Source of the DNA: Luteolibacter flavescens
Lineage (GTDB): Bacteria > Verrucomicrobiota > Verrucomicrobiia > Verrucomicrobiales > Akkermansiaceae
DNA: 64,000 bases
Direction of reading: 5' to 3'
Assembly (NCBI RefSeq): GCF_025950085.1
Contig: NZ_JAPDDS010000006.1
Coordinates: forward strand, 305,749-369,748
Positions within the stretch are counted from its first letter, which is position 1. Each line of letters begins with the position of its first letter. Below, piece by piece: positions 1,363-10,884 of the stretch. A program made the position numbers and the translations under genes. A model generated the notes under the pieces. The model had not been told where the DNA came from, searched no databases, and was given only the letters and a program-made list of their open reading frames with translations.

Positions 1363-1475
1363 TGAAAGTGGCTGCGGCATCCTGCCGCAAGCCTTCATCA
1401 GCCATGGCCGCCCGTCCCTGTCCTTGTTTCCCGGGACAGGGATAGGCATGCGGTAAGATGCCGCTGCCACTTTTC
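1363..1475. repeat. Composite REP-like palindrome pair between the HAD gene and rtcA
   Basis: Two copies of a short palindromic element face each other: AAAGTGGCTGCGGCATCCTG at 1365-1384 and its inverted counterpart (GATGCCGCTGCCACTTTT) ending near 1475. Between them is a second hairpin, GTCCCTGTCC...GGGACAGGG. The same core occurs at 10887-10983, 41405-41432 and between Y RNA units. Confidence 0.75.
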
Positions 1476-2490
1476 AGGCAGCCCCTACCTCGATCAACTT
1501 CGTGCCCCGACCACCATCGGAGACGTGGAATTTCACCGGCAGGAATTTCTCGATCACCGCGATATTCGTCGGCACATGCGAGTCCGGCGACATCGCGAGG
1601 ATGCGGCCTTCCCCGGCGAGCGCCATGGGCAGGAGCAATTGGTCCGCGAGGTGCCGTCCGACCGGAGCGCCGCAACCGATGAAGTCCAGCATCAGCTTCG
1701 CCGCACGATGTCCCACCTTCTCCGCGGAGACGCCATGCTCACCGATGGCGCTGGTCATTTCGCGGATGCCGGTGAATTCACTCTCGACGTGGCAGGAAAC
1801 CCCGGCACCCGGCCCGGGCTCGCAATTCTCCACGGCGGCATCCTTGCAGGGAAACGACTCCAGCGCGGCATCGAGCATCCGCCCGGCGATGGATAGCGGC
1901 AGGTGCCGTGTGATCACGCGGATGCGCGTGCCGGTCGGCTCGCCACGGGCTGTTAGATCCATAGGCGCGAGCTTCCCGCAGGGGTGGATGGTGGTCGTGA
2001 TTGCGCCTCCTCCGGCCGGGGCAAATCCCACGCTCTCCAGGGACAACTCCGCTCTCGCGCCGGCTCTGGCGATGGCGGGCAGGAAGACGCGGTCGAGGAA
2101 ATCGAAAGGCGGGGCCATGGGATTGTGCGTGCCGCCCTCCAGCCGCAGGGTGCTCGGTCCGTCCGCATGGAGGAGCGCGGGCAGCAGCGTCTGGAAGAGC
2201 AGCGAGGTGCTTCCCGCGGTGCCGATGGCGAATTGGTACGATCCTTCTCGTACTTTCCCCGCGCGGAAGACCAGCTCGGTCGAGCGGATCTCCGCACCGT
2301 CCGCGGTGCCGCCGGAGATTTCGCAGGCGGCCTTCACGCACGTCAGGTGCTGGCGCATCAGTCCCGGCTTCTGGCGCTTGCCGCGGATATTCGTCATGCG
2401 GAATGGCTGGCCGGTCACCATCGCCAGCGAGAGCGCGGTACGCAGCATCTGCCCGCCACCGGCGGAGCCATCGAGTTGGAGGGGTTTCAT
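1474..2490 (-). CDS. rtcA: RNA 3'-terminal phosphate cyclase RtcA
   Basis: Converts RNA 3'-phosphate ends to 2',3'-cyclic phosphates through an RtcA-AMP intermediate. I place the start at the ATG complementary to 2488-2490, because MKPLQLDGSAGGGQMLRTAL is the family N-terminus and gives 338 residues, the usual size. A longer in-frame extension upstream runs through a repeat and is probably not translated. Visible motifs are DGSAGGGQ (residues 6-13), RGKRQKPGL, GTAGST, the long GGGTH/NPMAPPFDF-type segment, and GRHLADQLLLPMAL near the C-terminus, whose His is the expected adenylated residue. It is the last rtc gene of the minus-strand repair operon, about 150 bases after rtcB. Confidence 0.95.
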   Translation of the reverse strand: MKPLQLDGSAGGGQMLRTALSLAMVTGQPFRMTNIRGKRQKPGLMRQHLTCVKAACEISGGTADGAEIRSTELVFRAGKVREGSYQFAIGTAGSTSLLFQTLLPALLHADGPSTLRLEGGTHNPMAPPFDFLDRVFLPAIARAGARAELSLESVGFAPAGGGAITTTIHPCGKLAPMDLTARGEPTGTRIRVITRHLPLSIAGRMLDAALESFPCKDAAVENCEPGPGAGVSCHVESEFTGIREMTSAIGEHGVSAEKVGHRAAKLMLDFIGCGAPVGRHLADQLLLPMALAGEGRILAMSPDSHVPTNIAVIEKFLPVKFHVSDGGRGTKLIEVGAA

Positions 2491-2642: not shown

Positions 2643-4115
2643 TCAATCGTCGGCAGCGGCCTCGTCCTTGATCACGAAGCGGGCCTGCAGCTTTGCCACC
2701 GTCTCGGCGAGTCCGGCGGACTCGACGCTACGCAGCACCTCGGGGAAGTCCTTGTAGGCATCGGGTGCCTCGTCGATCGGATACTTCCGGCAGTTCGAGA
2801 GGATGTCGTGCTTGTCGAAGTCGGAGTCCACGGCCCGCTGGTCCAGCGTGCGCGCCGCGTGCTTGCGGCCCATGCGCCGGCCTGCGCCGTGGTTCACGGA
2901 CCATGCGGTCTTCTCGGCACCGGCCTTTGCGACCATGACCACCGAGCCGTCGCGCGGATTTCCTGGCAGCAGGATCGGGTGGCCGGTCTTTGCAAAGGGC
3001 GTCCCCGCGAGCGAGAAGTGTCCGCCCGGGATGGCCCGGGTCGCGCCCTTGCGGTGGACCCATGACTTCTGGCCGTCGACGATTTCCTCCCGTGCGATAT
3101 TGTGCGAGATGAAATAGACGAGCTGTCCCTTCGCCCCGGGCAGCACTTCCTGGAAGGCCTCGAGGACGAGGGCATTGATCAAGAGGTGATTCACCGTCGC
3201 GAAGTTCGCGCCGAGAGCCATGTCGTCGAGATACGCATCCGCCTCGGGGGTCCCGAGCGGGGCGTAAACGAGCTGCTTGTCCCCGGCCGGGAAGGGCGTG
3301 CTCCAGGTGCGGAACTTCTTCTCCAAGTCCCGGAATTGTCCCTGCGCGAGCAGGTTCCCGAAGCCGCGCGATCCGCAGTGGCTGAGGAATGACACGTGGC
3401 CATCCTTCAGGCCGAAGCCGTCCGCGGTCGGCCGCTGTCCGGTCACCCGCGTGATCTCGCACTCGCCGAAATGGTTTCCACCACCGTAGGATCCGAGCTG
3501 GCCGATCTTGTCGGCGAAGTTCCGGATGCGTCCCTCCGCGAGGATGAAATCGAGGCGAGTATGAAGGGCATCGTAGGTCCCGTCATGGCCGTGGTGAGTG
3601 GAGTCCTCGCAGCGGAGCGCCCACTCCGGAGGGATCCCGAGTGCCTGGCACACGCGTGCGGTCGCGCCCTCGGTCACCGCGGGGATGCCGGTGAGCTCGT
3701 CCACGTGGCGACCCTTCTTCACGGACCGCTGGCCGCGGCCCGCGCCGGTCGGCGTGCGCTCGACGATGGCATTGATCAGGGCGCGCCGGGTCGCCTTGTC
3801 CGCGATCGCATCCTCGGGGATATCGAGCTGGAGCAGCGACATGGAGCACTTGATATCCACGCCCACCGGGCCCGGATAGATGTGGGTCGGCGAGACCATC
3901 ACGCAACCGACCGGTGCACCGTAGCCGGCGTGGCCGTCGGGATTCAGGATCACATCGGTGACGCCCGGTGCCATGCGCGAATTCACCGCCTGGTCCAGAC
4001 AGATCTGGTCAAAGGAATCGCGGATCGCTTCGGTGCCGACCACCGTGATCGGCTTGCCTTTGTCACCGGGGAGCGGGATGAAGCCGAGGGCTTCGTCGGT
4101 CTTGTGGATGGTCAT
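2643..4115 (-). CDS. rtcB: RNA-splicing ligase RtcB
   Basis: A GTP- and Mn-dependent ligase that joins 2',3'-cyclic-phosphate or 3'-phosphate RNA ends to 5'-OH ends. The protein is 490 residues. Metal and active-site residues are recognisable: D87 and C90 in GVDIKC, H215 in GGGNHFGE, H246 in SHCGSRGFG, H338 in SHNIAREE, and the His that is guanylated, H409 in SVNHGAGRRMGRKH. Length and motifs indicate a complete, active enzyme. It starts 4 bases after the stop of the small membrane-protein gene upstream, so it is translated within the same operon as rsr and the Y RNAs. Its first 25 coding bases are nearly repeated at the start of that upstream gene. Confidence 0.97.
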   Translation of the reverse strand: MTIHKTDEALGFIPLPGDKGKPITVVGTEAIRDSFDQICLDQAVNSRMAPGVTDVILNPDGHAGYGAPVGCVMVSPTHIYPGPVGVDIKCSMSLLQLDIPEDAIADKATRRALINAIVERTPTGAGRGQRSVKKGRHVDELTGIPAVTEGATARVCQALGIPPEWALRCEDSTHHGHDGTYDALHTRLDFILAEGRIRNFADKIGQLGSYGGGNHFGECEITRVTGQRPTADGFGLKDGHVSFLSHCGSRGFGNLLAQGQFRDLEKKFRTWSTPFPAGDKQLVYAPLGTPEADAYLDDMALGANFATVNHLLINALVLEAFQEVLPGAKGQLVYFISHNIAREEIVDGQKSWVHRKGATRAIPGGHFSLAGTPFAKTGHPILLPGNPRDGSVVMVAKAGAEKTAWSVNHGAGRRMGRKHAARTLDQRAVDSDFDKHDILSNCRKYPIDEAPDAYKDFPEVLRSVESAGLAETVAKLQARFVIKDEAAADD

Positions 4116-4119
4116 GGTG

Positions 4120-4476
4120 TTAGGAAAAGAGGATATGAAGCAGCCGGTAGAGGCCGAACAGTGCGAGCAGCGGAATCAGAATGAAGAACAGAGATACCAA
4201 TGCGAAAACTATCAGTCTCTCCCGAAAGGGGGTGTTCGATGCAGGTGAGGGTGTTGATTCGGAGATCTTTAGCTGGGTCAAGTTGACCTGGTCTCGGGTG
4301 ATCCGAAGCGAGTCAGAACTTCCAGCCAGCAACTGGTCGATGGATTGTTGAAGTAATGCGAATCCCTCCTGGTTTCCGATGATCCCGTCTTCACCTTCCA
4401 CTTCATCAAGAGCCAGCCACGGAGAAGGGGACGGGAGACTGACGTCTGTCGCTCCGTCGGTCTTGGGAATGGTCAT
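4120..4476 (-). CDS. Small hypothetical protein with a C-terminal membrane segment
   Basis: 118 residues with no recognised family. A mostly polar N-terminal 85 residues is followed by one hydrophobic segment (LIVFALVSLFFILIPLLALF, about residues 89-108) and a short tail, so it is probably tail-anchored or single-pass. Its start codon overlaps the stop of the preceding CPCC gene (ATGA). It ends 4 bases before rtcB, so it is firmly inside the operon. The first seven residues, MTIPKTD, nearly repeat those of RtcB (MTIHKTD), and the DNA matches too. This suggests a local duplication of the rtcB start when the upstream genes were inserted. Confidence 0.6.
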   Translation of the reverse strand: MTIPKTDGATDVSLPSPSPWLALDEVEGEDGIIGNQEGFALLQQSIDQLLAGSSDSLRITRDQVNLTQLKISESTPSPASNTPFRERLIVFALVSLFFILIPLLALFGLYRLLHILFS

Positions 4477-5252
4477 GGGATGGATGGAAAGGGAAAGGGG
4501 TGGGGGAGCCAGTCGGCCCAGCCATTGGCCAGTGCTTTTTCAGCGTCGTCCCGATAGGAGTCGCCCAGGGCGACGAACTTCAGGTAGGCAGCGACAGCTT
4601 GGTGTTGTTGTTTGTTGAGGAGGAGAAATGCGTGTTCGTAGTAGCCGGTGGAGCGGGGGCCATCGTCGAGTCCATAGAGCAGCATGTCCGAGTGGGAGAA
4701 GTCCGCGTATTCTGACTCGGCCCAGAGCTGGAGCGAGGATCTCATGAAGGCGGGCAGGTGGAACCGGATTGACCAAGGATCGAGGAATACAAGGCTGGTC
4801 CCGAGTTTCTCGATCTTCTCCTGTGGTATGTCCTGCCAGTGGACTTCGGGGTCCTTTTTTGCAGCCGCATTGAACACCTCCTCGGTGGACCAGTCGTCTA
4901 TCGCTTCCCGCTGGTGGATCGTGGTCCCTCCGTCGAGCTTCACCTTGCGGAATGCGGCTTCGATCAAATCGAGAATCCGCAGCCGTGAGTCTTCAAACGA
5001 GATCCATTCGTCAGGCCTTGCCTCCGACTCGAGCGGGGCGCGAACGAGATCCAGATGCTCCGGTTCGCATGCTCCGAATGTCGCAAAGTTTCGCTGGCCG
5101 ATGGCGAGCGAGACCTTGTTAGAGCCATTCCAGTAGGAGTCGCCAGGTGCATCTTCCCAGAAGCATACCGGGCATAGCTGCATCGTTCCACTAGCAGGAA
5201 TCGCGTAAGTGCGATTGCCGCAGCATGGGCATGGATGGAGAAGGTTGTTCAC
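4473..5252 (-). CDS. CPCC zinc-ribbon / DUF6714-type protein (paralogue 1)
   Basis: 259 residues, with a GTG start complementary to 5250-5252 that matches the start of its paralogue. The N-terminal module is a Cys-rich CPCC domain: C8, C10 and C11 in HPCPCCG, then C27 and C30 in LCPVCFWED, followed by GSNKVSLAIGQRNFATFGACE. It probably binds zinc. The C-terminal part (GGTTIHQREAIDDW, then LVFLDPWSIRFHLPAFMRSSL) looks like the DUF6714 family as I recall it. The biochemical function is unknown. It sits between the Y RNA array and rtcB and overlaps the next gene by 4 bases. About half of its residues match the paralogue at 5378-6157. Confidence 0.8.
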   Translation of the reverse strand: MNNLLHPCPCCGNRTYAIPASGTMQLCPVCFWEDAPGDSYWNGSNKVSLAIGQRNFATFGACEPEHLDLVRAPLESEARPDEWISFEDSRLRILDLIEAAFRKVKLDGGTTIHQREAIDDWSTEEVFNAAAKKDPEVHWQDIPQEKIEKLGTSLVFLDPWSIRFHLPAFMRSSLQLWAESEYADFSHSDMLLYGLDDGPRSTGYYEHAFLLLNKQQHQAVAAYLKFVALGDSYRDDAEKALANGWADWLPHPFPFPSIP

Positions 5253-5279: not shown

Positions 5280-5372
5280 TGACAAGGGGCTCGGTGACAA
5301 GACGTTGGTGAAAATTCCTGCTTTGCCAACAGGCCTACCCGCCGGGCGTGGCCGGATCTGAACCGGCGGTCA
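5280..5372 (-). ncRNA. Degenerate Y RNA remnant between the two CPCC genes (copy J)
   Basis: In the minus-strand sense a perfect T-arm remains (GCCGG TTCAGAT CCGGC, 5351-5367), followed by a D-arm-like stretch TAGGCCTGTTGGCAAAGCAG and two copies of the CCTTGTC strand seen at the 3' side of the other copies. The upstream half with the GAAUGC and ACUACA motifs is missing, because the sequence there is the 3' end of the CPCC paralogue 2 gene. The bases from CCTTGTCA to the CPCC start codon match those after copy I, so this looks like the residue of a duplicated Y RNA plus CPCC unit. Confidence 0.6.
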
Positions 5373-5377
5373 AGTGT

Positions 5378-6157
5378 TCAGGGTATTGCCTGTTTCAGGT
5401 AATGCGGAACGTAAGCGTCCCATCCTCTCCTCAATCCTTTCCGAGCACAGCTAGCTTGCGAATCCTCTGCGAAAATCGCGATGAGTCGGAGAAATGCGGC
5501 AGTCGCCTCCTTCTGTTCGCGCTCTAGGATCGCGATTGATTCCCGTCGGTAGCTACATTCGGGACCTCCATCCAGTGACCAGAGAATCCCATCGATTTCG
5601 GCGTGTCCGATGTCAGGAAAGGCGGTTGAAAGAGCGTGCCTCATGAAGGCTGGCAGATAGAACCGGTAACCAAGTTTATCGAGGAAAGCCAACGACCCAT
5701 GGAATTCGGACAACTTGCCGGAGGGGATGTCTTGCCAGCGGGTTTCGGGATCCTTGTTCTCGGCCTTTTTCATGGCTTCCTCCTTTATCGGCCACCCTCC
5801 ATCGACGAGATCCATTTGGTGGAGCGTGGTTCCACCCTCGCGGGATACGTTGTGAAATGCCCGTTCGATGGAAGCGATGACCTTTTCACGGAGCGTATCG
5901 AATGACATCCACTGAGGAGAACGGGCTTCTTCGGGAGATGGTGCCCGGGTTTGGCCTTCGAAGCGGGCTTCGCATGCTCCATGGATCAGATAGTGCCGCT
6001 GAGCCTGAACCAGTGAAACCTCGTTGGATCCATTGTATGGGGACTCGCCAGGCGCATCTTCCCAGAAGCACACCGGGCAGAGCTGCATCGTTCCATTCGC
6101 AGGAAGCGCGTAGGTGCGATGGCCGCAGCAAGGGCATGGATGGAGTAGGTCGGACAC
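5378..6157 (-). CDS. CPCC zinc-ribbon / DUF6714-type protein (paralogue 2)
   Basis: 259 residues, exactly the length of its downstream paralogue, with a GTG start complementary to 6155-6157. The cysteine pattern is the same (HPCPCCG at residues 6-12, LCPVCFWED at 26-34, HGACE), as is the C-terminal pattern (GGTTLHQMDLVDGGW, then LAFLDKLGYRFYLPAFMRHAL). It starts 21 bases after the last full Y RNA (copy I), so that RNA forms its leader. Its 3' end runs into the degenerate copy J. Function is unknown. Conservation of both paralogues, including all zinc-site cysteines, suggests that both are used. Possible roles are RNA-binding accessory or regulator of the repair genes. Confidence 0.8.
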   Translation of the reverse strand: MSDLLHPCPCCGHRTYALPANGTMQLCPVCFWEDAPGESPYNGSNEVSLVQAQRHYLIHGACEARFEGQTRAPSPEEARSPQWMSFDTLREKVIASIERAFHNVSREGGTTLHQMDLVDGGWPIKEEAMKKAENKDPETRWQDIPSGKLSEFHGSLAFLDKLGYRFYLPAFMRHALSTAFPDIGHAEIDGILWSLDGGPECSYRRESIAILEREQKEATAAFLRLIAIFAEDSQASCARKGLRRGWDAYVPHYLKQAIP

Positions 6158-6178
6158 GGGTTTCGGATTTGAGAGGGA

Positions 6179-6302
6179 TCATCGTGACAAGGGAGCGAAG
6201 ACATTTGCTAGCGCGTCTGATTCCGCCACGGGCCCGGAGGCCCGGCGGGATTGGATACCCGCATGATCTAGCCCACTGTAGTCCTCACGGCATTCACGAT
6301 GA
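6179..6302 (-). ncRNA. Y RNA with tRNA-like module, copy I
   Basis: The basal stem TCATCGTGA/TCACGATGA (9 bp) closes the RNA. Above the internal loop the second stem GTGAGGAC/GTCTTCGC leads to ACTACA. The module contains a T-arm-like hairpin (GCGGG/CCCGC, loop TATCCAAT, 6245-6262), a closed acceptor-like hairpin CGGGCC TCCG GGCCCG (6229-6244), and TGGCGGAATCAGACGCGCTAG, which resembles the D-arm of a leucine tRNA. The T-loop lacks the usual TTC, so tRNA mimicry is weaker here than in copies D, G and H. It lies 8 bases from copy H and just upstream of CPCC paralogue 2. Confidence 0.75.
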
Positions 6303-6310
6303 AAGGGGAT

Positions 6311-6436
6311 CGGCGACAAAGGATGGGTGAAACGTCCTGCTCTACCAACTGAGCTACCGGGTCGTGAGTGGCCCGGACCGGACTCGAACCGGCGACCTAG
6401 TCGATGTGAACGATGTAGTTTCACCGGCATTCGCCG
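6311..6436 (-). ncRNA. Y RNA with tRNA-like module, copy H
   Basis: Basal stem CGGCGA/TCGCCG; internal loop (ATGCC opposite CATCCTTTG); upper stem GGTGAAAC/GTTTCACC (8 bp) followed by TACA. The module in transcript order is: AGGTC, T-arm GCCGG TTCGAGT CCGGT (6377-6393), acceptor strands CCGGGCC and GACCCGG joined by ACTCAC (one A-C mismatch), TA, and D-arm GCTC AGTTGGTA GAGC (6339-6354). T-loop TTC and D-loop GG are present, as needed for a tRNA elbow. The 5' strand contains GGCGAATG, which fits the GNCGAANG Ro-binding motif I recall for bacterial Y RNAs. Confidence 0.85.
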
Positions 6437-6480
6437 GGGTGATTGTTAGAAATGGTTTCCTGGATGTTTCCGGGGGAAAT

Positions 6481-6600
6481 CCGCGACAAGGATTGGAAGG
6501 ACATTCGCCATTGCTCTACCGGGCTGAGCTACCCGCCGTGCGGGGCAGGAGTCGAACCTGCGACCAGTGGGATAAGATGTAGTCCTCCCTGCATTCGCGG
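6481..6600 (-). ncRNA. Y RNA with tRNA-like module, copy G
   Basis: Basal stem CCGCGA/TCGCGG; upper stem GGGAGGAC/GTCCTTCC with one G-U pair; then ACTACA. The module has TGGTC, T-arm GCAGG TTCGACT CCTGC (6545-6561), a shortened closed acceptor hairpin CCCGC ACG GCGGG, TA, and D-arm GCTC AGCCCGGTA GAGC (6513-6529). The GAATGC and CCTTGTCG strands are both present. About 45 bases with no clear structure separate it from copy H. Confidence 0.85.
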
Positions 6601-6607
6601 GAGTGGG

Positions 6608-6706
6608 ATGCTGACAAGGGTGACGGGACATGCTCCCGGGCCTTGCGAGCCGGGGCGGGATTTGAACCTGCGTGCTACCTGATGTAGTCCCGCCAGCATT
6701 CAGCAT
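6608..6706 (-). ncRNA. Y RNA with reduced tRNA-like module, copy F
   Basis: Basal stem ATGCTGA/TCAGCAT (7 bp), upper stem CGGGAC/GTCCCG, ACTACA, and CCTTGTCAG on the 3' strand. The T-arm is recognisable (GCAGG TTCAAAT CCCGC, four of five pairs). An acceptor-like hairpin CCCGG...CCGGG follows, but there is no D-arm: the sequence passes straight to AGCATG and the upper stem. It may be an eroding tRNA mimic or a different functional form. Confidence 0.7.
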
Positions 6707-6753
6707 GAGTGTTTGGAAACAGGAGCCTTCGGCTTGATCCGCGGCACGCGGAT

Positions 6754-6822
6754 GGAGCGCTGGCTTTAGCCGGCGAGTATTTTTCGCATGGTTGGTGACT
6801 TGCCGGCTAAAGCCAGCGCTCC
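6754..6822. repeat. 21-bp perfect inverted repeat inside the Y RNA array
   Basis: The arms at 6754-6774 and 6802-6822 are perfect complements over 21 bases and include GGCTAAAGCCAGCGCTCC on the + strand arm. They are separated by 27 bases (GAGTATTTTTCGC...). It lies between copies E and F. Each arm also contains a smaller palindrome (GGCTTTAGCC). It is unrelated to the GTGGCTnCGGCAT element that separates other units. Confidence 0.8.
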
Positions 6823-6836
6823 GATGGAGGAGAGTT

Positions 6837-6928
6837 GCCAACACGGCGGCAAGATGGGGTGGGACACGGGCGTTTCCGCCATGCGTTACCAACGAATTGT
6901 AGTCCCACCAGGCATCCGCCGTGTTGGC
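6837..6928 (-). ncRNA. Y RNA without tRNA module, two small apical hairpins, copy E
   Basis: A perfect 12-bp basal stem, GCCAACACGGCG/CGCCGTGTTGGC, and a perfect 8-bp upper stem, GGTGGGAC/GTCCCACC, flank an internal loop (GATGCCT opposite CCATCTTGC). Above them is TACAATT and then two minimal hairpins, CGTT GGT AACG and GGCG GAAA CGCC, the second with a GNRA loop. There is no T-arm. Strong compensatory pairing makes this one of the clearest folds in the array. Confidence 0.8.
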
Positions 6929-6940
6929 AGATTCGGTGAA

Positions 6941-6966
6941 GGATTTCGGCAGGATGCCGAAGCCAC
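6941..6966. repeat. REP-like hairpin between Y RNA copies D and E
   Basis: In transcript sense it reads GTGGCTTCGGCATCCTGCCG followed by AAATCC, forming a stem of TTCGGCA with TGCCGAA. It is the same core as the hairpins at 7227-7250 and 7367-7390 and the REP-like elements elsewhere in the window. Confidence 0.75.
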
Positions 6967-6992
6967 GGTCAATAGGAGACGGTGAAGAAAGG

Positions 6993-7118
6993 TGCCGACA
7001 AGGGTATGGTAGAAACGTAGCGCCGACGAGCTACCGCTGCTCCACTCCGCCCGGGGGCGGAGGCGGGATTCGAACCCGCGACCTCCGGAATGGCATGTAG
7101 TTTCTTCCGCATTCGGCA
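6993..7118 (-). ncRNA. Y RNA with near-perfect permuted tRNA module, copy D
   Basis: Basal stem TGCCGA/TCGGCA; 5' strand GCCGAATG; upper stem AGAAAC/GTTTCT; 3' strand ACCCTTGTCGG. The module is the best in the array: variable-loop-like AGGTC, T-arm GCGGG TTCGAAT CCCGC (7063-7079), a 7-bp acceptor stem CTCCGCC/GGCGGAG closed by CCCG (7045-7062), TG, and D-arm GAGC AGCGGTA GCTC (7028-7042). Order is 3' half then 5' half of a tRNA, with the acceptor ends fused and the Ro-binding stem in the anticodon-arm position. D-loop GG and T-loop TTC allow the elbow contacts. No anticodon or free CCA end exists, so it cannot be a translating tRNA. Confidence 0.9.
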
Positions 7119-7130
7119 GGGAAGTGAGGG

Positions 7131-7212
7131 CTGGCGCGGCGGCGAGAAGTGGGGAAGACGATGTGGCCATACGTAGTGGAGTTGTAGTCTTCTCCGGGCA
7201 TCCGCCGCGCAG
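7131..7212 (-). ncRNA. Y RNA without tRNA module, copy C
   Basis: Basal stem CTGCGCGGCG/CGCCGCGCCAG with one bulged C; internal loop GATGCCCGGA opposite CCCACTTCT; upper stem GAAGAC/GTCTTC; apical loop TACAACTCCACTACGTATGG followed by CCACATC. It is nearly identical to copy B, pointing to a recent tandem duplication of a Y RNA plus hairpin unit. Confidence 0.8.
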
Positions 7213-7226
7213 GCAGATTCTGTGGA

Positions 7227-7250
7227 GGCTTTCGGCAAGATGCCGAAGCC
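7227..7250. repeat. REP-like hairpin between Y RNA copies B and C
   Basis: Transcript sense GGCTTCGGCA TCT TGCCGAAAGCC, a stem of ten pairs with one bulged A. Identical to the element at 7367-7390. Confidence 0.8.
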
Positions 7251-7270
7251 ACTGTTAGAGTTAGAGGCGA

Positions 7271-7352
7271 CCGGCGTGGCGGCGAGGAGTGGGGAAGACG
7301 ATGTTGCCATACGTAGTGGGGTTGTAGTCTTCTCCGGGCATCCGCCGCGCAG
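7271..7352 (-). ncRNA. Y RNA without tRNA module, copy B
   Basis: Basal stem CTGCGCGGCG/CGCCACGCCGG with two mismatches; upper stem GAAGAC/GTCTTC; apical loop TACAACCCCACTACGTATGG then CAACATC. Compared with copy C, most differences fall in the loop and the outer 3' stem strand. The loop is too short for a T-arm or D-arm. Confidence 0.78.
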
Positions 7353-7366
7353 GCAGATTCTGTTAG

Positions 7367-7390
7367 GGCTTTCGGCAAGATGCCGAAGCC
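7367..7390. repeat. REP-like hairpin between Y RNA copies A and B
   Basis: Same sequence as the element at 7227-7250. Together with the following CAGAATCTGCC it forms the spacer of each short Y RNA unit. Confidence 0.8.
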
Positions 7391-7404
7391 ACGATTAAAG
7401 ACGA

Positions 7405-7487
7405 CCGGCGCGGCGGCGAGGAGTGGTGAAGACGTTGGTGCCATGAGCATATGGAGTTGTAGTCTTCTCCGGCATCCGCCGCGCCGG
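7405..7487 (-). ncRNA. Y RNA without tRNA module, copy A, first after rsr
   Basis: It begins 12 bases after the rsr stop codon. A perfect 11-bp basal stem CCGGCGCGGCG/CGCCGCGCCGG, internal loop GATGCCGGA opposite ACCACTCCT, and upper stem GAAGAC/GTCTTC enclose a 28-base loop with a small CCAT/ATGG hairpin. The compensatory differences from copies B and C in the basal stem support a conserved structure. Confidence 0.82.
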
Positions 7488-7499
7488 CAGATCATTCGG

Positions 7500-9074
7500 T
7501 CATGCGAGTTTCATGCGTTCGGTCAGAGGTTGGCGTTCGATCTCGCGGACCCAGTGGTCTGTCCCGTCGGCTCCCGCGGCGAATGCCGCGATGACTTCGA
7601 AGACGGAGTCGCTGAAGCCGCCGATATTGAGGATGTCTTCCCGGTCAGGGACCTGTGCCGTGGTGTTCGGCACCAGGTCGATGCAGACAAGACGGGCATT
7701 CGGATTACGAGCCTTGAGCTTTTGCCACTCGACGATCATCGCGGTTCCGCGATGGATCGGGGCATCGACCCAGGACTCATTGTCGGAAATGAAGATCACC
7801 AGGTCGGCGTCCGCCTTTTCCGCGTTCAGCCTTGCCAGCGGTGCGGAGCAGTTCGTTCCGCCTCCGCCGATGCCTGCGAGCCGGGTGGCATTCGTCATCA
7901 CGGAGTCGCGGGCATTGAGCTGGATGTCCACCACGTGGCACTCGAAGGGCAGCACCCGTGCTTCGCGGTTCTTCCGCACGAAGGCGGCAGCGACCAGCGC
8001 GGCGACGTCGATGCAGCGGACCACCGAGCTGGCACCCGGACGGTAGCCCGTCGCTGGACAACTCATGGAACCGGACACGTCCGGGCAGATCACGACCTTC
8101 CCGGCGATCTCCGGGACATTCGCGATGGCGGTTTCCATCGCATCCTGGAGGGCGTCGCGGAGGACCCCCGGCACGTCCTTGCCCGCATTCAGGAATGCGA
8201 CCAGGAGCTGGTAGGGGAAGACCCGGGCGCGCCGGACCTGCTCGGGATCCGCCAGCCGTGCGGCCAGCTTCTCCGCCATCCCGCTGAACTTGAATACACC
8301 ATGACGGGCAAAGGTATTCAGGTTCATGCGCGTGGTCTGCCACGAGGCGGCACCGGCGATGGCCGACCACTCCCGCTCCCCGAGATTGAGCGCGGTGAGC
8401 ATCTGGAAGGGCACGTCCGGCACCTCGCCCTCGCGGGAAAGCTTCCATGCCTCGTAGGCACGCAGCGTCCCGGGTAGGAGCGCGGGATCGTGGGGCTTGC
8501 CGATGAGCCATGCGTAGAAGGCCTCGCGGGTGGCATCCGCCGGGCGCGGGTGGACCATCTTCACGACATCCGCCAGCGAGGGATCGTTGCCGATCGTCGC
8601 GTTGACGAGTTGCCGTTCATTGGCCCGCTCGAGCCACTGGCGGACGAGCCGCTTCGGCGCGGAGCCCAGGGACTTCCGCCCGGTCACGCCGGAGCGCAGG
8701 ATCTGGACGAAGTTCCGGAGCATCTTCCCGTTGTCGATGACCTGCGGGAAGATCTCGGCGAGGCGGTCGAGATCGCGGGTGGCGAGCACCGCGCAGAGCA
8801 GTGCCGGCATGTCTTTCATGTGGCCCTTCCGCCGGGCGTAGAGCGCGGTCTGCGCGAGGAAATCGACATCCACCTGGCGGGCCAGTTCGAGCACGCGGTC
8901 GAGCTGCATTTCAGCCGAGGCATAGTAGGTACGGGTGAGGCATCCGGTGGCCGCTAGGCGGGCAAGCGTGGCCTTTGGCGACAATTCGTAGGCCGGGGCT
9001 CCCGCATCGTTGCGGACGGTGGCCGCAGGCAGGAGCGCGCCGCGGATCGTTTTGAAGAGGTTCTTATTCGCCAT
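7500..9074 (-). CDS. rsr: Ro60-family TROVE-domain RNA-binding protein Rsr
   Basis: 524 residues, the expected size for a bacterial Ro orthologue. Residues 30-310 form the helical TROVE ring domain (TRTYYASAEMQLDRVLELARQ near the start, then the SWQTTRMNLNTFARHGVF segment). The rest is a von Willebrand A domain with an intact metal site, DVSGSMS at 332-338, and a later GGGTNCSAPL threonine loop and FISDNESWVD. Ro proteins bind misfolded RNA ends in the ring and Y RNA on its outer face. They can tether exonucleases such as PNPase. It is the first gene of the repair operon, 28 bases after the predicted start of the sigma-54 transcript, and is followed directly by the Y RNA array. Confidence 0.96.
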   Translation of the reverse strand: MANKNLFKTIRGALLPAATVRNDAGAPAYELSPKATLARLAATGCLTRTYYASAEMQLDRVLELARQVDVDFLAQTALYARRKGHMKDMPALLCAVLATRDLDRLAEIFPQVIDNGKMLRNFVQILRSGVTGRKSLGSAPKRLVRQWLERANERQLVNATIGNDPSLADVVKMVHPRPADATREAFYAWLIGKPHDPALLPGTLRAYEAWKLSREGEVPDVPFQMLTALNLGEREWSAIAGAASWQTTRMNLNTFARHGVFKFSGMAEKLAARLADPEQVRRARVFPYQLLVAFLNAGKDVPGVLRDALQDAMETAIANVPEIAGKVVICPDVSGSMSCPATGYRPGASSVVRCIDVAALVAAAFVRKNREARVLPFECHVVDIQLNARDSVMTNATRLAGIGGGGTNCSAPLARLNAEKADADLVIFISDNESWVDAPIHRGTAMIVEWQKLKARNPNARLVCIDLVPNTTAQVPDREDILNIGGFSDSVFEVIAAFAAGADGTDHWVREIERQPLTERMKLA

Positions 9075-9112: not shown

Positions 9113-9129
9113 GGCATGGCCCGTGCCAA
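9113..9129 (-). promoter_or_regulatory. Sigma-54 promoter of the rsr-Y RNA-rtcBA operon
   Basis: On the minus strand the sequence TTGGCACGGGCCATGCC has the -24 element TGGCACG and the -12 GC exactly ten bases after the GG, as in the sigma-54 consensus TGGCACGN4TTGC. Transcription would begin near 9102 and leave a leader of about 28 bases before the rsr start codon. RtcR, encoded divergently, is the expected activator. Confidence 0.85.
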
Positions 9130-9282: not shown

Positions 9283-10884
9283 TTGGTGCCTGTGAAGCGC
9301 GTGATGATCGGTCTGCTGGGGACGAAGCTCGACATGGGCCTTGATCCCGGACGTTGGGACGGCTGGCGACCGAGCGTGTCGCTGTTCCAGCATGAGGATC
9401 TCCTCTTTGATCGCTGCGAGCTGCTGTCCGACGGGAAATTCGCAAAGCTCCACGAGCAGGTGGCGGAGGATGTTCGGCTGGTTTCTCCCGAGACGGAGGT
9501 CCGGCGGCACGTGGTGGACTTCGGCAGGGACCCGTGGGACCTCGCGTCGGTCTATGCGGGGCTGCACGATTGGGCGCGTGCCTACCCCTTCGACCCGGAG
9601 AGGGAGGAATACTGGGTCCACATCACCACCGGCACGCACATCATGCAGATCTCGCTCTTCCTGCTGGTGGAGGCGGGCTACCTGCCGGGGAAGCTGATCC
9701 AGACCTCGCCGAGACTCTCCGAGCGGAAGTCGAGTCCTGTCGGCCGCTATGCCGTCATCGACCTGGACTTGTCGAAGTACGATGCCCTTAGTACCCGCTT
9801 CGCCCGGGACGCGGTCGAGACCACGGACTTCCTGAAGAGCGGCATCGCCACGCGGAATGCCAGCTTCAACCGCCTGATCGACCGCATCGAGCAGGTCGCG
9901 CTGCGCTCGCACGCGCCGATCCTGCTGTGCGGGCCCACGGGTGCGGGCAAGTCCCACCTCGCGCGCCGCATCTTCGACCTGCGCAAGCAGCGTGGCGGCC
10001 TGCGCGGCGGCTTCGTGGAGATGAATTGCGCCACGCTCCGCGGGGATACCGCGGCCTCCGCGCTCTTCGGCCACGTGCGCGGCTCCTTCACCGGCGCGCA
10101 GAAGGACAGGCCCGGCCTGCTCCGCGAGGCGGATGGCGGCCTGCTCTTCCTCGATGAAATCGGCGAGCTGGGCGAGGACGAGCAGGCGATGCTGCTGCGC
10201 GCACTGGAGGACAAGACCTTCCTCCCCGTCGGCTCGGACAAGCCGGTGAGCAGCGATTTCCAGCTCATCGCGGGGACGAACCGTGACCTGCGGGAAAGCG
10301 TGGCGAGCGGCCGCTTCCGCGAGGACCTGCTGGCACGCATCCACCTGTGGACCTTCGAGCTGCCCGCGCTGCGGCAGCGGCGCGAGGACATCGCGCCTAA
10401 TCTCGACTTCGAGCTGGATCGCCATGCCCGGGCGAATGGCAAGCAGGTGAGCTTCAACAAGGAGGCGCGGCAGGCCTTCTTGAAATTCGCCGAGGCACCG
10501 GACACGGCGTGGTCCGGGAACTTCCGCGACCTGAATGCCGCCATCACCCGCATGGCGACCCTCGCCCCGCGGGGGCGCATCCGCGTGGAGGAGGTGGAGG
10601 AGGAGATCGAGCGCCTGCGCGAAAGCTGGAGACGGCCGGGAAGTACGACGGATGTCGTAGGTGAGATCCCGCTCGACGGTCTGCTGGAGGAAGACATCGA
10701 CCCTTTCGACCGCGTGCAGCTCGCCCACGTCGTCTCGGTCTGCCGGAGGTCCCGCACCATGTCGGAGGCGGGCCGCGAGCTTTTCTCCGTCTCCCGGCAG
10801 AAGCGCACGGTCACGAACGACGCGGACCGCCTGAAGAAATACCTCGCGAAATTCGGCCTCGATTTCGAGCGCTGCCGGAAGTGA
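9283..10884 (+). CDS. rtcR: Sigma-54-dependent RNA-repair regulator RtcR (CARF-AAA+-HTH)
   Basis: 533 residues from a GTG start. Residues 1-180 match the RtcR sensor (VMIGLLGTKLD, then SPETEVRRHVVDFGRDPWD, HITTGTHIMQISLFLLVEAGYLPGKLIQTSP), a CARF-type domain thought to sense RNA ends such as cyclic-phosphate RNA. The AAA+ domain has Walker A GPTGAGKS (217-224), the sigma-54 contact loop as GSFTGA rather than GAFTGA (267-272), and Walker B LLFLDEIGE (287-295). The C-terminus carries a helix-turn-helix-like segment (MSEAGRELFSVSRQKRTVTNDADRLKKYL). It is divergent from the operon it should control. Confidence 0.95.
   Translation: MVPVKRVMIGLLGTKLDMGLDPGRWDGWRPSVSLFQHEDLLFDRCELLSDGKFAKLHEQVAEDVRLVSPETEVRRHVVDFGRDPWDLASVYAGLHDWARAYPFDPEREEYWVHITTGTHIMQISLFLLVEAGYLPGKLIQTSPRLSERKSSPVGRYAVIDLDLSKYDALSTRFARDAVETTDFLKSGIATRNASFNRLIDRIEQVALRSHAPILLCGPTGAGKSHLARRIFDLRKQRGGLRGGFVEMNCATLRGDTAASALFGHVRGSFTGAQKDRPGLLREADGGLLFLDEIGELGEDEQAMLLRALEDKTFLPVGSDKPVSSDFQLIAGTNRDLRESVASGRFREDLLARIHLWTFELPALRQRREDIAPNLDFELDRHARANGKQVSFNKEARQAFLKFAEAPDTAWSGNFRDLNAAITRMATLAPRGRIRVEEVEEEIERLRESWRRPGSTTDVVGEIPLDGLLEEDIDPFDRVQLAHVVSVCRRSRTMSEAGRELFSVSRQKRTVTNDADRLKKYLAKFGLDFERCRK

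Follow-up and report, generated by a model that had tools for sequence, protein, structure and literature searches.

In Salmonella, the RNA-repair operon rsr-yrlBA-rtcBA is transcribed with the help of sigma-54 after its activator, RtcR, has been activated by tRNA fragments with a 2',3'-cyclic phosphate (PMC7790460 and PMC9879122). The Y RNA YrlA holds Rsr by its stem and PNPase by its tRNA-like part, which is modified by DusA and TruB (reviewed in PMC8394870); YrlA is left uncut by the nuclease in question, and a role as competitive inhibitor has been proposed for the tRNA-like domain (PMC7790460). That YrlA contains a circularly permuted tRNA has already been published for structure 6CU1 (PMC11472068), and in the Rsr-Y RNA-PNPase machine of Deinococcus radiodurans the Y RNA is described as a tether to the partner (PMC7790460). 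Here, we report on a 64,000-nucleotide stretch of the Luteolibacter flavescens genome (contig NZ_JAPDDS010000006.1, positions 305,749 to 369,748; the whole stretch is referred to as the window), in which nine Y RNA units and one 3' remnant lie on the minus strand between rsr and rtcB. On balance, we favor the reading that the nine predicted Y RNAs form an ordered set, each of which would dock on Rsr through a stem common to all, while differing outer modules would bring in different tRNA-handling partners.

Salmonella YrlB is a short form, and both short and tRNA-like units are found in the window. The gene order and the (here predicted) sigma-54/RtcR control are common to the window and to Salmonella rsr-yrlB-yrlA-rtcB-rtcA (PMC9879122, PMC7790460), where YrlA is the last Y RNA before rtcB; in the window, too, tRNA-like units come last. 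The Salmonella operon has two Y RNAs, however, against nine in the window, and the additional CPCC/DUF6714 protein genes are peculiar to the latter. With YrlA (Rfam RF02553; 6CU1), window units have in common a circularly permuted tRNA body on a Y stem, but the initiator-type (54 bits) and leucine-type (36.8 bits) units described below score under the Rfam cut-off of 69, and leucine-type relatives have an added variable-arm hairpin. The D. radiodurans machine shares an Rsr homologue with the window (2nvo_A, 2.5e-26), and the window Y RNAs may likewise serve as tethers to a partner; unlike that machine, the single window array encodes many different outer modules. A literature search that did not cover the primary YrlA papers, where an earlier mention of multiple copies is possible, returned no Y RNA array this long and no initiator- or leucine-type Y RNA.

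The units occupy positions 6178 to 7485 and start, as modelled, 14 nucleotides from rsr. We scored them with the Rfam YrlA model and with two covariance models of our own, R1 (40 short units in its training alignment, including 2 window units) and R2 (45 tRNA-like units, including 4 window units). Nearest to rsr are three short Y RNAs, U1 (7407..7485; R1, 65.3 bits), U2 (7273..7351; R1, 59.1 bits) and U3 (7133..7211; R1, 62.0 bits; no R2 match), followed by U4 (6989..7122; Rfam, 54 bits; R2, 99.2 bits), which is tRNA-like with an initiator-type D arm, and by another short unit, U5 (6840..6925; Rfam, 27.1 bits; R1, 58.6 bits). U6 (6605..6709; Rfam, 31.9; R1, 43.4; R2, 63.2) has a somewhat decayed part resembling a T arm and acceptor and is without a D arm; U7 (6477..6604; Rfam, 79.4 bits, above the cut-off; R2, 109.2) and U8 (6307..6440; Rfam, 68.5 bits, just under it; R2, 116.6) are tRNA-like units of the class-I elongator type; and U9 (6178..6303; Rfam, 36.8; R2, 80.0) is tRNA-like with a leucine-type D arm. 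Since U1 and U3 are training sequences of R1 and U4, U7, U8 and U9 of R2, the R1 scores of U2, U5 and U6 are those of units in neither training alignment. R1 matched all nine units (worst E value, 9.4e-6) and R2 matched eight, missing U3, while a scan with the YrlA covariance model (cmscan), a check suggested by an earlier note on this DNA, gave six minus-strand matches at E ≤ 0.01, one of them above the cut-off. AUGC and CUACA strands are present in all nine, and an R1 search of the 5.9-megabase genome (150 of 2369 first-look candidates scored) yielded nine matches at E ≤ 0.01, every one of them in the array. ARAGORN called no tRNA in the window. The assignment of the nine units to the bacterial Y RNAs of an RNA-repair operon is supported by these Rfam matches, by covariation (see below), by genome-wide uniqueness and by position (rsr-array-rtcBA with a divergent rtcR and a sigma-54-type site), and the units are likely made within the rsr-rtcBA transcript.

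The tenth element, U10 (5288..5378, minus strand), represents the 3' part of a unit. Its R2 match was faint (15 bits; E, 0.13 over 5288-5402), and its alignment scores were 65 with U8, 44 with U7, 34 with U6, 30 with U9 and 28 with U4; it is best read as a decayed copy of U8. As U10 lies between two CPCC genes, where the end of U9 and the start of the CPCC gene recur as an 87-nucleotide repeat (87% identity), the likely history is duplication of a block comprising the CPCC gene and the last Y RNAs, followed by loss of some of its RNAs. The earlier note had described nine Y RNAs plus one remnant in an rsr-rtcBA operon, which agrees with our results (R1, 9 of 9; Rfam YrlA, 6 of 9; remnant aligned to U8); its coordinates were right as given, with the refinement that the array proper ends at 6178 and that a protein gene sets the remnant apart. 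Its treatment of the insides of the units as loops, by contrast, has to be abandoned, because five of the nine have tRNA-like parts of at least three types.

Permuted T, acceptor and D arms were found in U4, U7, U8 and U9, which thus carry permuted tRNA bodies. In U7 and U8 (type I), the Y stem is attached at the anticodon of a class-I tRNA body; U4 (type F) has the same body with the initiator D stem GAGC/GCUC, and U9 (type L) has a tRNA body with the leucine D stem GCGG. U6 (type M) is a mini-form with a T arm and a closed acceptor and without a D arm, clearer in the related loci L013 and L017, and U1 to U3 and U5 (type S) are plain hairpins without tRNA arms. The D-arm types were judged against the genome's own tRNAs (47 distinct tRNAs from 48 matches, with the initiator marked by script from its first base, C). 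Only 1 of these 47, the initiator, has the D stem GAGC, and GCGG occurs in 5, all of them Leu tRNAs. Similarly, the D half of U4 scored 40 with the initiator (fMet) tRNA and 27 with the next best, and the five best matches of the U9 D half were the five Leu tRNAs (37 versus 24); across the whole body of U9, Leu scored 41 and His 34. Isotype calls other than F and L mostly lead by 4 to 8 points and are not claimed. Larger D-half leads were seen in single units of relatives, one Arg-like (L037, 2357-2490; 42 versus 28) and one Pro-like (L029, 5191-5310; 44 versus 34.5), which perhaps represent further mimic types.

To place these types in a wider context, we searched 195 genomes of the family, 35 of which, including that of L. 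flavescens, contain rsr at E ≤ 1e-40. Regions were taken from the other 34 (L041 and L042 being contigs with an array but little or no rsr) and from the best 80 of 241 confirmed rsr relatives (named loci), of which 8 duplicating family loci were dropped and 3 (L046, L049 and L050) were assigned to the family on the basis of Rsr identity and title. In 35/35 family genomes with rsr, YrlA was matched at E ≤ 0.001, and rsr is present in 28/28 family genomes whose YrlA match exceeds the cut-off. The 38 family loci, including the window, hold 175 units in arrays of 2 to 9, some of them cut by contig ends. Type F occurs in 15 of the 38 arrays (nine by score and six by the D-stem rule GAG[CU]/[AG]CUC, with L037 doubtful), and type L, assigned by D-arm score, occurs in 12. 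When the D arm was masked, the nearest neighbor in another genome was of the same type for 14/15 F, 12/12 L and 80/80 class-I units (107 units in total); the 26 of 27 same-type neighbors of F and L combined compare with a mean of 4.95 and a maximum of 14 in within-locus label shuffles, none of 2000 of which reached 26. The F unit without an F neighbor is that of L037.

Within the genus, conservation extends to the order of the units. Of 268 reciprocal best pairs, 267 join units of the same type, and, with whole units compared, the order S-F-I-M-I-I-L is followed by 434 concordant versus 23 discordant pairs among reciprocal best hits. The unit strings of the 13 genus loci read SSSFSMIIL (the window), SSSFIMIIL, SSFIMIIL (twice), SFIMIIL, SIMIIL, SFIIL, SIIIL, SSFIILI, SFII, SMMI, II and IL. 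The array is therefore best described as an ordered set of old origin on which local copying has recently been superimposed, as exemplified by U2, a recent tandem copy of U3. Additionally, most leucine-type units of relatives carry a further feature outside the D arm: an extra hairpin of at least 4 base pairs before the T stem, mostly GAAA looped and placed where class-II tRNAs have their long variable arm, was found in 10/12 L, 6/77 class-I and 1/12 initiator-type units (counts refer to units with a located T stem, i.e., 77/80 I, 12/15 F and 12/12 L). At a threshold of at least 3 base pairs, the same script counted 11/12, 27/77 and 2/12, respectively. It replaced, with a changed T anchor and a 5-nucleotide window, an earlier script that had misplaced some T stems and had reported hairpins of at least 3 base pairs in 8/12 L and 8/80 I units and of at least 4 base pairs in 0/12 and 4/80.

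These comparisons bear directly on the idea that the copies are redundant, the array serving only to raise the amount of Y RNA available to Rsr and the module differences being drift. Such redundancy would sit well with the recent U2/U3 tandem copy (92% identical over 128 nucleotides), with U10 as a decayed copy and with family array sizes ranging from 2 to 9 (partly through contig ends), but it would not account for 267 of 268 reciprocal best pairs being of the same type in a kept order, nor should drift preserve pairing in the initiator and leucine D stems or an extra hairpin in the variable arm. We consider this explanation unlikely, though the most credible of the alternatives weighed here; a plain dosage array had been the first idea and was downgraded because D arms and order are type-specific.

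Several observations weigh against an ordered set of Y RNAs with distinct tRNA-like modules. Across the whole body, U4 favors fMet over Pro by a lead of only 2 points (60 versus 58); its T half is nearest to Asp tRNA (50), with fMet outside the top five, and the T half of U9 is nearest to His tRNA (33), with Leu outside the top five. Initiator tRNAs are characterized by a D stem with A11-U24 and by a mismatch at the first acceptor pair; U4 has the former, in its GAGC/GCUC stem, but, read by eye, shows no such mismatch and closes with an ordinary G-C pair. U9 is without the variable-arm hairpin that most L units have, and the L unit of L009 has one of only 3 base pairs. In addition, F is absent from 23/38 and L from 26/38 family arrays, some cut by contig ends, and of the 77 family genomes that YrlA matches at E ≤ 0.001, 42 are without rsr at E ≤ 1e-40; the matches in those 42 genomes are all under the Rfam cut-off, as are matches found in 6/14 control genomes. 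Because the T halves, the whole-body scores and the U9 variable arm do not follow the D-arm type, the tRNA resemblance is best regarded as modular, with the F or L type showing in the D arm.

The structures themselves are backed by covariation, in line with the earlier note's claim of conserved RNA structure. Among 45 tRNA-like units, both sides changed in 23/28 pairs, and the covariation score was 0.590, versus 0.190 for shuffled alignments; among 40 short units, the corresponding values were 12/15 pairs and 0.649 versus 0.214. Neither score was reached in any of 500 shuffles, whereas the bare count of 12 both-side pairs in the short units was equalled in 20/500. In the tRNA-like set, both-side changes affected 3/5 pairs of the T stem (the other two being invariant), 5/5 of the acceptor and 3/4 of the D stem, and compensatory change was found in each of the five helices; sliding the structure along the alignment lowered the share of paired cells from 96.2% to 36-46%. 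In the short set, covariation was seen in 7/8 pairs of the basal stem with its GNCGAANG-type strand and in 5/7 pairs of the second stem, both stems being demanded by the descriptor used for selection, and the Y stem contains an A-U/G-C exchange split 20 to 20.

How the sequences were chosen limits part of this evidence. Both Y stems plus the AUG and ACNAC strands were required by the descriptor, and units entered the tRNA-like set if their D half scored 28 or more with own tRNAs. Part of the pairing in the Y stems and the D stem thus follows from the selection, in which T and acceptor pairing played no part. Of the units listed, 40 of the 47 short ones and 43 of the 102 long ones entered the alignments, the long set being completed by two window units. 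Chance matches to the descriptor were rare, with 2 in 296,792 bases shuffled singly in pieces of up to 5 kilobases, versus one to eight matches per locus in 104/115 loci (the 8 duplicates included).

The same data make it highly improbable that the tRNA-like pieces are dead tRNA-gene fragments caught in an intergenic region and not working RNAs. A region of this kind might well look as the spacers do, with REP-like hairpins that recur at 35 places in the genome, and the remnant does show decay; dead fragments, however, should not display compensatory change in each of five helices, keep their slots and order across a genus, or accompany rsr as a Y RNA match in 35/35 family genomes.

Outside the family, 69 loci remained, most from other phyla (three with Verrucomicrobiota names), 66 of which hold at least 600 nucleotides after rsr. 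Counting units with R1 at E ≤ 1e-3 or R2 at E ≤ 1e-4 within 3 kilobases after rsr, with overlaps merged, gave 1 unit in 1 locus, 2 in 9, 3 in 10, 4 in 21, 5 in 20, 6 in 3 and 7 in 2; around six model hits fall away from the array. Two or more units are thus present in 65/66 of these untruncated loci, and tandem Y RNAs are the rule in this sample, which consists of close Rsr relatives, is rich in Burkholderiales and gives shares that are not those of all bacteria. Nine units mark the top of the range seen. The earlier note had held an array of this length to be undescribed as far as its author knew; long it is, but not exceptional, given nine units in L009 (another species of the same genus), eight in three further family loci and four to seven in 46/66 outer loci. 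A search of the phylum with R2 at E ≤ 1e-5 gave hits in 69/387 genomes, 12 of them with hits under 1e-20 and the rest at 3.7e-9 or weaker; the weaker hits, many of which cover the tRNA-like middle only, were not counted as Y RNAs.

The initiator D stem GAGC/GCUC following a T arm was found in 11 loci, all of the family, and the class-I stem GCUC/GAGC was found 144 times among 241 T arms. An outer F call, in L080, is false by its own scores (class-I 38 versus 19), and nine outer L calls by the class script were set aside, those that were read being forms opened at the D loop. The break in the tRNA-like body of these forms seems to lie in the D loop and not in the anticodon loop, and a short loop closes the anticodon stem. 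When units were aligned to doubled tRNA, both alignment ends fell in the D loop for 17/265 outer units and 0/175 family units; there is one such unit each in L060, L063, L069, L076, L078, L081, L089, L090, L091, L093, L094, L103, L104, L108, L113, L116 and L119. A strict structural script marked 9/265 outer units as D-loop-open, 3 in common with the alignment set, and still fired with the upstream part shuffled (5/45, 13/275 and 4/750 trials). The D-loop-open unit of Pelomonas relatives (e.g., L069, 8067-8212) is leucine-like and has a long variable arm. Also observed were mini-form units that combine a T arm with a closed acceptor hairpin and lack a D arm, both in the family (L013, 2672-2774; L017, 2704-2808) and outside it (e.g., L069, 7810-7911). 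They resemble the top half of a tRNA; a T arm plus acceptor alone was parsed in 20/175 family and 35/265 outer units, by a strict arm parser that sees no T arm in 24/175 and 87/265, respectively, and is too strict for decayed loops.

How might such a set work? By analogy with Salmonella, a cut tRNA would switch the operon on through RtcR, the nine RNAs would be cut out of the transcript as separate RNAs, and each would dock on Rsr through the common stem, leaving the outer module (plain hairpin, T-arm/acceptor mini-form or class-I, initiator or leucine tRNA body) to choose the partner. With its anticodon loop giving way to the Y stem, a tRNA body would resemble a tRNA opened there but offer no loop to cut, and it could therefore dock on tRNA-binding enzymes uncleaved. 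The retention of different modules at set positions speaks for different jobs, and the order shared with relatives makes it likely that the array is a conserved group of adaptors that would link Rsr to tRNA handling during RNA repair. More tentatively, bacterial Ro operons may encode a series of tRNA mimics, each with a definite identity (initiator, class-I elongator or class-II leucine) and with the Ro-docking stem in place of the anticodon loop, or, in other phyla, with a D-loop-open body, through which the Ro ring could meet, shield or triage specific tRNAs and their enzymes during RtcB repair, the Y RNAs then being a tRNA-identity code and not a single tether.

Toxins that cut initiator or leucine tRNA are known, and anticodon nucleases mostly read the anticodon loop. 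The tRNA-like units could be imagined as uncuttable decoys for anticodon nucleases, with the initiator and leucine types widening the range of nucleases soaked up. Replacement of the anticodon loop by the Y stem in U4 and U7 to U9 and the RNA-repair nature of the operon would suit such decoys, yet the very loop that these nucleases mostly read is missing from the units, and we find this role rather improbable. Its other support is the competitive inhibition proposed for Salmonella YrlA (PMC7790460). Still less probable, in our judgment, is a feedback role in which the mimics, by resembling an anticodon-opened tRNA, would influence sensing or repair through RtcR, RtcB or RtcA. YrlA-type units are indeed tRNA bodies opened at the anticodon, but they are without a free cyclic-phosphate end there, and the D-loop-open units of other phyla do not fit. 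Should the units instead be adaptors, as we favor, the mimic types in fixed slots across the genus would be natural variants of the tRNA-like domain with an internal control, namely, the same Rsr stem carrying different modules; such arrays allow the function of the tRNA-like domain of bacterial Y RNAs to be addressed one unit at a time, and they point to several tRNA-related partners of Ro proteins instead of a single one.

The genes around the array have the composition of an RtcR-controlled RNA-repair operon: rtcB, rtcA, a divergent rtcR and, judged by pattern only, a sigma-54-type promoter. The last, a promoter-like site of the form TGGCAC-N5-ATGC (9114..9128, minus strand), begins 54 nucleotides ahead of rsr, and patterns of this type occur within 300 nucleotides 5' of rsr in 73/104 loci with enough sequence (shuffled expectation, 0.2). 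Between 4200 and 9400, no sigma-70-type promoters were predicted (shuffled mean, 1.4), and the five terminator-like sites (shuffled mean, 4.5) include a single one on the array strand, located within rsr. The rsr gene (7500..9074, minus strand) encodes a Ro60-like TROVE/vWA RNA-binding ring protein (Pfam vWA_Ro60, 1.6e-18; TROVE, 1e-5), residues 16-501 of which align to D. radiodurans Rsr 2nvo_A; its score with the NCBIfam Rsr model is 98.8, under the cut-off of 900. On the same strand lie rtcB (RNA ligase; 2643..4115; Pfam RtcB, 1.2e-98) and rtcA (RNA 3'-phosphate cyclase; 1474..2487; Pfam RTC, 5.2e-75; NCBIfam above cut-off), and rtcR (9283..10884, plus strand) encodes the divergent sigma-54 activator (NCBIfam RNA_repair_RtcR, 774.6 bits, above the cut-off of 650).

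Two CPCC/DUF6714 protein genes on the minus strand separate the array from rtcB, copy 1 at 5378..6157 (Pfam PF14206, 6.4e-20; PF20461, 2.5e-23) and copy 2 at 4473..5252 (assigned with Pfam); their products have 123 identical and 131 different aligned residues. CPCC/DUF6714 genes sit between Y RNA units and rtcB in 8/38 family loci (the window, L009, L017, L019, L022, L023, L026 and L042), and L022 has one further unit after the gene. A 118-amino-acid open frame (4120..4476, minus strand) between the CPCC gene and rtcB gave no family match in Pfam and NCBIfam scans and shares 4 nucleotides with the end of the CPCC gene.

Finally, the spacers contain repeats. The hairpin GTGGCTTCGGCATC.TGCCGAAA, found in three of them (6944-6966, 7230-7252 and 7370-7392) as part of the repeat holding U2 and U3, was considered as a processing or terminator element and rejected, since it is a genome-wide REP-like repeat (the 35 places were counted with at most 2 mismatches and include 4 exact matches; control, 0). 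Between U5 and U6, a 25-nucleotide inverted repeat around GCTGGCTTTAGCCGGC (6754-6822) looks like a second repeat element.

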